Below are positions 36,436 to 38,126 of a DNA stretch of 64,000 bases, one piece after another. How positions within the stretch are numbered: the stretch's first letter is position 1; every line of letters starts with the position of its first letter. A program made the position numbers and the translations under genes. The notes beneath the pieces were generated by a model. It saw only the letters and a list, made by a program, of their open reading frames with translations, was not told where the DNA came from and made no database searches. Source of the DNA: Flavonifractor sp. An112 (lineage in GTDB: Bacteria > Bacillota > Clostridia > Oscillospirales > Oscillospiraceae); assembly GCF_002161085.1 (NCBI RefSeq), contig NZ_NFLU01000009.1:1-64000 (forward strand), given 5' to 3'.

Positions 36436-37788
36436 TTACATGGACAGTACATTTTTGCGGCACCAGGCCCGGCTGCGCCACCGCAGCAGGAAGAGCACCG
36501 CCCGCAGGCACTCGTCGCAGGCCATGGCAATCCACAACCCCGCCAGCCCCAGGCCCAGGGGCACGGCCAGCAGGAAACCGCCTACTACAGCGGTAAGCCA
36601 GGCGCTGAAAATGCAGATGGTGATGGGGAAGCGAATATCTCCGCAGGCCTGAAGAGCCCGGCACATGACCATGTTCACCGCACGGCCCAGTTCCAGGGGG
36701 ATCTCGATGATCATAATGATGCGGAAGAGTTCCAGCACCTGGGGATCCTTGGTAAACAGGCCCAGCAGGGGCTGACAGAACACCAGTAGTATCACCGCCA
36801 TCAGACCGGAGATAGCCAGGGAGGCCAGCAAGGTGCGTTTTACCAGCCGCTCCACGTCGGGAACACGGTCGGCACCCATCAGGTGGGCCACCATGACCTG
36901 GGCAGCCTGGGAGATGGCGGAGCCAAACATATAGGTGAGCATGGCGAACATATTGGCGTATACCCGGGTATTGATGACGAAGATGGCGAACAGGTTGCAG
37001 ATGGACTGGATGGCCACCTGGGACAGATTATAGGAGATGGACTCTCCGCCGGCGGGGATGCCGATGCGCAGCAGACGGCGCAGCTGGTCGGTGGGGAAGG
37101 GGCGGAGCAGCTTGAGGGAGAGCACAGGGCCAAACTTCCGGCGGAACAGGAAAGCGATAAGGATGACGCCCACCACACGGGAGATATCGCTGGACAGAGC
37201 GGCGCCTGCCACGCCCAGGGCAGGCAGGCCGAAGGTACCACCGATGAGCACCGCGTTGCCGCCGATGTTGAGCAGATTCATGATCACAGCCACGATCATG
37301 CTCTCCTTCATCATCTGGTTGGAACGGAAAAAAGCGGTAAAGGTGAGATAGACCGCCTGGAACACCATGCCCCCGCCAATAATCCGCAGGTACAGGCAGC
37401 TGCGGTCCAGGATCTCCGTCGGCACCTGCATCAGCGTAAAGATGGGGCCGCACAGGGCGATGAGAATGACGCCCACCACCAGACCGAAGATAGCGTTGAC
37501 CAGCAGGGAGAGGGTATAGGTCTCATTAACCCGCCGTTTGTCCTCAGCGCCCAGGTAACGGGAGATGAGGATGGTGGAGGCGGTGGAAATAACGGAAAAG
37601 ACCAGAAGTACCAGATTGGTGATCTGGTTGGCGTTGCCGATGGCGCCTACGCCGTTGGGGTCAAAGTGCCCCACCATGACCTGGTCGGCGTTGCCCACCA
37701 GCATCTGAAGAAGCAGTTCGATGAAGATGGGCCAGGTGAGGGACAGAATGCCCGGCTCGCGCCGGCGGAGAACGGTAGCTTGTTCCAT
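36436..37788 (-). CDS. MATE family efflux transporter
   Basis: This 450-residue exporter has 12 predicted helices and typical MatE blocks (QMLVGNADQVMVGHF, ILISRYLGAEDKRRVNETY, GIPAGGESISYNLSQVAIQ, QAAQVMVAHLMGADR). The GAEDKRRVNETY pattern fits the DinF/NorM-like clostridial branch and differs from the MATE proteins at 33 and 53 kb, so the three are not recent duplicates. GGAAG lies before the ATG. Its promoter now appears separated from the gene by a 250-bp insert (37844-38095). Confidence 0.88.
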   Translation of the reverse strand: MEQATVLRRREPGILSLTWPIFIELLLQMLVGNADQVMVGHFDPNGVGAIGNANQITNLVLLVFSVISTASTILISRYLGAEDKRRVNETYTLSLLVNAIFGLVVGVILIALCGPIFTLMQVPTEILDRSCLYLRIIGGGMVFQAVYLTFTAFFRSNQMMKESMIVAVIMNLLNIGGNAVLIGGTFGLPALGVAGAALSSDISRVVGVILIAFLFRRKFGPVLSLKLLRPFPTDQLRRLLRIGIPAGGESISYNLSQVAIQSICNLFAIFVINTRVYANMFAMLTYMFGSAISQAAQVMVAHLMGADRVPDVERLVKRTLLASLAISGLMAVILLVFCQPLLGLFTKDPQVLELFRIIMIIEIPLELGRAVNMVMCRALQACGDIRFPITICIFSAWLTAVVGGFLLAVPLGLGLAGLWIAMACDECLRAVLFLLRWRSRAWCRKNVLSM

Positions 37789-37843
37789 GGAGGGGCTTCC
37801 TTTCGGTACAGAAATGGGAAATAGAAAGTACCGTATTAGTATA

Positions 37844-38095
37844 ATGCGTACTGAACAAAGCCGAATGCCTTGAAAGCACCAGCTTTCAAGGCCAGTTGGC
37901 TTTGTTCAAGTGCAAGGTTTTTGGACGAGATCGACCCAAAACCTTGCACCTTCTGCTGGTGCGCCTTAACGCACCAGCGGAAATACGCATTGTACCAATG
38001 GCTAAATTTCATAAAAACGGCCACTTCGAGCCGTTTTATGAAATTGGGCGGCTACTGCCGCACGAATAAACCGTATCACGGTTTATTCAGCAGAC
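37844..38095. mobile_element. Hairpin-rich non-autonomous element with direct-repeat flanks
   Basis: This roughly 250-bp stretch holds no convincing gene but six successive hairpins: TGAACAAAGCC/GGCTTTGTTCA (37852-37862, 37898-37908) enclosing GCCTTGAAAGC/GCTTTCAAGGC (37867-37892); GTGCAAGGTTTT/AAAACCTTGCAC (37910-37949); GCTGGTGCG/CGCACCAGC (37955-37978); AATTTCATAAAA-A-CGGC/GCCGTTTTATGAAATT (38005-38045); GCGGC/GCCGC (38048-38061); GAATAAACCGT/ACGGTTTATTC (38064-38088). The ends carry a short imperfect inverted repeat (CTGAACAAA, CTGAATAAA). ATTAGTATA flanks it on both sides (37835-37843 and 38096-38104; 11 of 12 bases match if extended), which looks like a target-site duplication. A structured 5' leader RNA is the main alternative. 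Confidence 0.6.
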
Positions 38096-38098
38096 ATT

Positions 38099-38126
38099 AG
38101 TATAGTGTCTCCATGCCAAAATGCAA
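38099..38126 (-). promoter_or_regulatory. Promoter of the MATE gene, split from it by the insert
   Basis: On the minus strand TTGCAT (38126-38121) and TATACT (38104-38099) are 16 bp apart. The -10 box is inside the flanking direct repeat, so the second copy of the repeat at 37835-37846 also carries TATACT but without a good -35. Confidence 0.55.

Follow-up and report, generated by a model that had tools for sequence, protein, structure and literature searches.

The structured sequence upstream of the MATE gene belongs to a new family of IS5-group MITEs with unusual siting, which lies in the fit between target, element end and promoter -10 box and in the placement of copies before dnaA, hprK and other core genes. 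We infer that, very probably, an IS5-family transposase of the NF033578 type mobilises it in trans. The family shows the features by which MITEs are recognised: the copy described here is short and has no protein-coding capacity, and the family has terminal inverted repeats, is flanked by a target-site duplication, occurs in many dispersed copies, and has ends in common with an autonomous element, here an IS5-family element of Enterococcus lactis (right end, 0 of 17 mismatches). In the window, by which we mean the whole 64,000-nucleotide stretch of DNA that was analysed, the element and its surroundings comprise the following features.

37842..38099, minus strand: MITE, TAATGCG...GACATTA, 258 bp, delimited by family comparison and empty sites
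37842..37862, plus strand: left terminal inverted repeat, TAATGCGTACTGAACAAAGCC
38080..38099, minus strand: right terminal inverted repeat, TAATGTCTGCTGAATAAACC, inward reading
37839..37841, no strand: target-site duplication GTA, copy 1; outer TA at 37837-37838
38100..38102, no strand: target-site duplication GTA, copy 2; outer TA at 38103-38104
37844..37990, no strand: domain 1, ATGCGTA...TACGCAT closing stem, enclosing three hairpins
37991..37997, no strand: 7-nt spacer TGTACCA, between the CAT and ATG of domains 1 and 2
37998..38097, no strand: domain 2, ATGG...CAGACAT closing stem, enclosing three hairpins, of which the last is 38064-38088
38099..38104, minus strand: -10 hexamer TATACT; 38099 is the terminal element base and supplies the last T on the minus strand
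38121..38126, minus strand: -35 hexamer TTGCAT, spacer 16
36436..37788, minus strand: MATE family efflux transporter, the downstream gene, start codon at 37788 (TIGR00797 E 1.2e-62; PF01554 E 4.2e-50)

A preliminary description of this locus had proposed an element at 37835..38107; the element is confirmed, but its limits are 37842-38099. The imperfect inverted-repeat ends given there, CTGAACAAA and CTGAATAAA, hold as the inner portion of the longer, likewise imperfect terminal inverted repeats, TAATGCGTACTGAACAAAGCC and TAATGTCTGCTGAATAAACC. A flanking direct repeat had also been reported, and its 9-mer ATTAGTATA is real, but only GTA is duplicated target (3 bp, not 9-12). As described, the element contains no credible gene; the overlapping open reading frames in a set of at least 50 aa are just 50-76 aa long. 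The six consecutive hairpins were recovered as well: the family consensus fold has six hairpins, the first made of two stacked stems, and two outer stems that close two domains. The hairpins of domain 1 lie at about 37852-37908, 37910-37949 and 37951-37982. The stretch 37835-38107 has a minimum free energy of -140 kcal/mol, whereas its shuffled versions average -67.7 (sd 5; z -14.5), and none of 200 shuffles folded as low. The interdomain spacer reads TGTAACA in the family consensus and TGTACCA in the window copy, and both domains read ATG...CAT; the spacer may be the fossil target site of two fused elements. At gathering score, Rfam 15 placed no family over the element. Elsewhere in the window it found a T-box leader (RF00230, 23362-23597, minus strand, 105 bits) and an FMN riboswitch (RF00050, 48036-48164, plus strand, 101 bits).

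Copies, empty sites and target duplication

Relatives provide both occupied and empty sites, which together prove insertion. At the window locus, the promoter region was uninterrupted in eight of the nine relatives displayed (G006, G018, G016, G011, G002, G004, G009 and G005; four further matching genomes lay outside the display), and the ninth, G015, carries the same insertion with the element internally shortened. Conservation at this locus in all relatives, which the preliminary description had named among the observations that would speak against it, was thus not seen. The promoter that it had proposed, TTGCAT-N16-TATACT, is present on the minus strand (38126-38121 and 38104-38099) and runs uninterrupted in relatives such as G006. 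The empty sites that it had proposed as a check were also found beyond the window locus, since the joined flanks were uninterrupted in relatives at all six other loci tested (hprK, mtaB, GlmU-like, response regulator, dnaA and yedF), from mtaB as the best (98% identity over 320 bases in G006) to hprK as the weakest (75%). Within the loci already collected, 96 joined-flank queries returned no empty site. Genes behind copies were recognised above model cut-offs as MATE, hprK (TIGR00679), mtaB (TIGR01579), dnaA (TIGR00362) and yedF (TIGR03527), and below cut-offs as GlmU-like, a response regulator (OmpR/PhoB-type) and SpoIIGA-like. The dnaA insertion is common to four genomes (G000, G002, G015 and G018). 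In the genome of the window (G000), the left flank of that copy (L006), from the element to dnaA, contains another short hairpin, CTTGAAAGCC..GGCTTTCAAG; it is much like the inner stem of the element and is possibly a remnant of another copy.

Further copies, alike in their ends but with different flanking duplications, which the preliminary description had also proposed to look for, are numerous. The genome of the window has seven, at 69-100% identity, and the element occurs in 14 of 20 genus genomes, this one included; the 273-bp query found nothing in 40 genomes of other genera. The exact 20-base right-end pattern, searched in one genome per species over 84,980 species, returned 109 stretches. 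Their carriers are Flavonifractor, Pseudoflavonifractor, Intestinimonas, Galloscillospira, Limivicinus, Dysosmobacter, Oscillibacter and Enterenecus, all of which we take to be Oscillospiraceae, together with many Oscillospiraceae, Clostridiales and Clostridia bins. Searches of the 20 genus genomes with end patterns returned 54, 79 and 157 matches against 1, 0 and 10 for the reversed patterns, the last pair being that of the common end pattern TAATGNNTNCTGAAYAAANC at no more than two mismatches. The collected loci comprise 179 right ends, of which 101 have a left end and others stand without one; 95 of the 101 exceed 180 bp and are treated as full copies, and 73 of these measure 256-260 bp. 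Shorter forms extend down to one palindromic hairpin (L180, L193 and L176), and one locus (L096) has its left end doubled in tandem (TAATGCGTACTTAATGCGTACTTAACAAAGCC). Non-orthologous copies within one genome reach 96% identity (L002 and L003), which indicates that the spread was not all ancient. Among the plasmids and phages searched, the element itself was not matched. A short form with about 55 bp between both ends is present on a viral contig (L308, IMGVR_UViG_3300001919_000278), a possible vehicle for the element.

The duplication is 3 bp (NNN) within TA-NNN-TA, where the outer TA belongs to the target and the inner TA to the element. Of the 95 full copies, 76 have the same NNN on both sides, where shuffled pairings give 20.0, and only 10 have neither a 2- nor a 3-bp duplication (63.9 shuffled). 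A 2-bp duplication is no more frequent than chance (9 of 95 against 11.2), and a few copies resemble TA-NN-TA. The inner TA pairs, which adjoin the element, are more constant than the outer ones: of the 8 copies that lack TA as the left outer pair, 7 keep it as the right inner pair, and all 4 that lack it as the right outer pair have it as the left inner pair. This independence of inner from outer pairs defines the element as TAATG...CATTA and the duplication as NNN. A 7-bp duplication, TANNNTA, was considered and rejected on two grounds: the TA pairs outside and inside NNN do not copy one another, and the empty sites at dnaA and GlmU-like have CATTATA where the right copy has TATTATA.

Relationship to IS5-family elements

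In another genus, an end of this kind (L221) precedes an IS5-family transposase gene by about 120 bp, and the encoded protein matches NF033578 (E 1.6e-97) and PF05598; it was this protein that was scanned against NF033578, and the other transposases are its tblastn relatives annotated as IS5 family. Similar ends, with 1-4 of 17 mismatches, stand beside homologous transposase genes at L221, L231, L232 and L243, and plasmids hold 308 records of homologues of the L221 transposase, all below 60% identity. Our comparison set for NF033578 (transpos_IS5_1) consisted of the elements of E. lactis pY3-3, Tetragenococcus pHDC-I and R. albus pRUMAL02, together with ISLca3 and ISAcma17. All five are flanked by TA-N(2-3)-TA, like the MITE, and the closest two have ends close to TAATGTCTRCTGAAYAA, again like the MITE. 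The E. lactis element has TATTTA on both sides and the ends TAATGTCTACTGAATAATC and TAATGTCTGCTGAATAA, the latter identical to the first 17 bases of the right terminal inverted repeat of the MITE; the Tetragenococcus element has the end sequence TAATGCCTACTGA. The ends of the remaining three (R. albus, ISLca3 and ISAcma17) are different, but the target rule holds for them too. The rule was found at five of six plasmid IS loci, with flanks TATTTA, TATTTA, TAATTA, TAACTTA and TAGTTA, while L246 gave no clear end pair; at L244, L245 and L247 the end sequences differ from those of the MITE. The IS5-family elements carry a transposase gene of 467-527 codons, whereas the MITE is 258 bp long with six hairpins and no gene.

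A GTGCAAG...CTTGCAC hairpin that resembles the MITE hairpin at 37910-37949 precedes the transposase in the R. albus and Acaryochloris elements and is found at the IS end of G005. Both arms are present in two of six IS leaders (L244 and L247) and in that IS end, and one or both arms are missing from the other four leaders. G005 has eight ends reading TAATGTCTRCTGAAYAAC, seven of them at contig breaks, in the manner of a multi-copy IS broken at assembly gaps (contig ends L204-L210); its transposase was not found in the G005 contigs analysed, which show the IS ends alone. A weak match to an IS end in G014 (L215) was rejected, as the locus shows an apparently integrase-like ORF and no such transposase among the listed ORFs. 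No IS with both ends equal to both MITE ends was found, nor was an intact parent in the genus: the L221 transposase query matched one of 20 genomes, as a 44%-identity fragment in G004, and the family may therefore be stranded in most genus genomes. Together, the copies with different duplications, the empty sites and the IS5-like ends bear out the earlier reading of a non-autonomous element inserted at a promoter, and the dispersed copies, terminal inverted repeats and 3-bp duplication agree with the MITE-like family suggested there.

BOX elements are modular in build and differ from the present MITE in host and ends. They too are small interspersed MITE-like repeats, from Streptococcus pneumoniae, and are called currently dormant in the excerpts of PMC3049150 used here, which describe no -10 targeting by BOX. 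According to excerpts of PMC2229807, the Correia/NEMIS elements of Neisseria are MITEs with terminal inverted repeats that are foldable and transcribed with neighbouring genes; they carry putative promoters or create new ones, whereas the MITE described here keeps the host's own -10. The same excerpts give a precedent for assignment through common ends, by which the pneumococcal RUP was matched to its parent IS (IS630-Spn1); RUP, however, belongs to the IS630 family and has a TA target, in contrast to an IS5-family element with NNN duplicated between TA pairs. Among the open-licence PMC papers listed, titles and abstract beginnings showed none on this MITE family or on a MITE that targets -10 boxes.

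Siting at promoter -10 boxes

Insertions favour TATAATA, which in either direction accounts for 38 of 68 deduplicated NNN insertions against 16 of 107 intergenic TANNNTA sites (odds 7.2, Fisher 1.6e-8). The intergenic background rests on a crude ORF mask, with ORFs of at least 100 aa covering 811,812 of the 870,562 bases of the loci; insertion points lie inside ORFs of at least 150 aa in 44 of 68 cases, a count that is uninformative at such coverage. The -10 survives insertion because the terminal TA of the element replaces that of the target, and TA-NNN-T is rebuilt because the element base beside NNN is a T on the promoter strand. When the duplication reads as a minus-strand -10, a TTG at spacing 16-18 is present in the right flank at 49 of 89 sites and in the left flank at 5 of 49; for a plus-strand -10 the corresponding counts are 2 of 33 and 7 of 21, and for tied readings 10 of 32 and 0 of 15. 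The -35 thus tends to lie on the side predicted by the duplication (Fisher 3e-7 right, 0.034 left), with 40 of 89 minus-type sites having no TTG at the right spacing. Furthermore, TTA duplications outnumber TAA by 30 to 8 (binomial 4.7e-4); by the -10 reading, transcription would enter mostly from the right end.

These patterns could also arise if the insertion machinery recognised the promoter complex, for instance an open -10 bubble, beyond the bases TANNNTA. The enrichment of TATAATA over intergenic TANNNTA and the -35 side that follows duplication polarity are what such recognition would produce. However, a TTG on either side accompanies 24 of 38 TATAATA insertions, which is not clearly above the background of 8 of 16, and on the promoter side 30 of 61 background TATAATA sites have one. 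Since background TATAATA sites carry a -35 TTG as often as insertions do, promoter targeting beyond the sequence TATAATA is not shown, and the loss of gene-harming insertions would likewise over-represent promoters; we regard recognition of the complex as unlikely. Far less probable still is mobilisation by another TA-targeting transposase, such as an IS630/Tc1-like enzyme. Most bacterial MITEs end in a TA motif, and RUP, whose assigned transposase is of the IS630 family, likewise inserts at TA (excerpts of PMC2229807), but the bases duplicated here are NNN, not TA, and it is among IS5-family elements of the NF033578 group that matching ends are found.

Hairpin stems and consequences for host genes

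We analysed the stems in 81 of 89 copies (rows more than 97% alike removed) over 255 of 350 alignment columns; RNAalifold gave a poor consensus on the full alignment, and the stems were taken instead from folding the consensus sequence. Watson-Crick pairs fill 7188 of 8135 stem cells, two-sided compensatory cells number 608 against 171 (sd 10) in shuffles, and pairing drops to 25-33% when stem partners are slid. The covariation expected of a cis-regulatory structured RNA is therefore present, although alone it does not separate RNA from DNA palindromes. The strand-specific wobble signature of such an RNA was absent from the stems of these 81 copies, in which G-T (273) equals A-C (259). Split by promoter orientation, the G-T/A-C counts are 165/157 for minus, 53/60 for plus and 55/42 for ties, and do not follow the direction of the transcript. 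This equality leaves RNA selection unsupported, and with it the RNA-structured family that the preliminary description had offered as an alternative, though the compensatory changes that it predicted are present.

Orthologous copies differ by 36 two-sided Watson-Crick changes over nine pairs. Twenty belong to L019/L018; another pair, the dnaA copies L055 and L006, has five, spread over different hairpins. L018 and L019 (G017 and G019) have a common insertion site, flanks more than 80% alike and several hairpins with wholly different stem sequences; they may be independent or different insertions at one site, or a case of rapid hairpin replacement. Arm-to-arm template switching at quasipalindromes has been studied in E. 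coli (excerpts of PMC7202029), and would yield two-sided stem changes without RNA function.

A native, riboswitch-like leader RNA of the MATE gene, inherited vertically, would account for the very stable fold and for the covariation. It is refuted by the empty sites, among them the window locus in most displayed relatives, and by dispersed copies before genes as unrelated as MATE, hprK, mtaB, dnaA and yedF, and no Rfam family matches the element; we leave it next to no probability. A different matter is a domesticated regulator of host genes, a mobile element in which selection on the leader RNA would now maintain the hairpins. The excess of TTA over TAA duplications, the two-sided changes between orthologous dnaA copies and the dnaA insertion common to four genomes all speak for this. 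Selection on one RNA strand, however, should favour G-U over A-C, which the stem counts do not show in either promoter orientation, and template switching can produce the same two-sided changes. Domestication therefore appears rather improbable.

The reading that we prefer, a MITE mobilised in trans, would proceed as follows. An IS5-family transposase of the NF033578 type would act on the element ends and insert the element at TA-NNN-TA, favouring TATAATA and duplicating the 3-bp NNN. The outer TA, NNN and the T of the element would again read TANNNT, so that the host -10 would be kept. The host promoter would presumably still fire, with the transcript starting inside the element, and the MATE gene would receive a leader of roughly 300 nt by minus-strand transcription through the element. 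The hairpins would be kept as DNA palindromes, either because transposition favours them or because template switching during replication repairs arm from arm, and not as a strand-specific RNA fold.

Insertions into promoters usually kill or replace the promoter. Here the -10 still reads TANNNT with any middle bases, a property that could account for copies having settled before dnaA, hprK and other core genes. More tentatively, and at somewhat less than even chances, the element may in effect be a -10-box specialist, with TANNNTA as its recognised target, TATAATA as the preferred form and its own terminal base restoring the hexamer. Genes as central as dnaA would then retain their promoter and gain a transposable hairpin leader, with one direction prevailing (30 to 8); insertion would be nearly neutral, and the leader could be drafted into regulation. 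The stems pass a covariation test without the signature of an RNA strand, and covariation alone could thus mimic a new structured RNA family. If this view is true, such insertions would form a common and easily missed class of leaders in these gut bacteria, one that matters for transcript mapping and for the discovery of RNAs.
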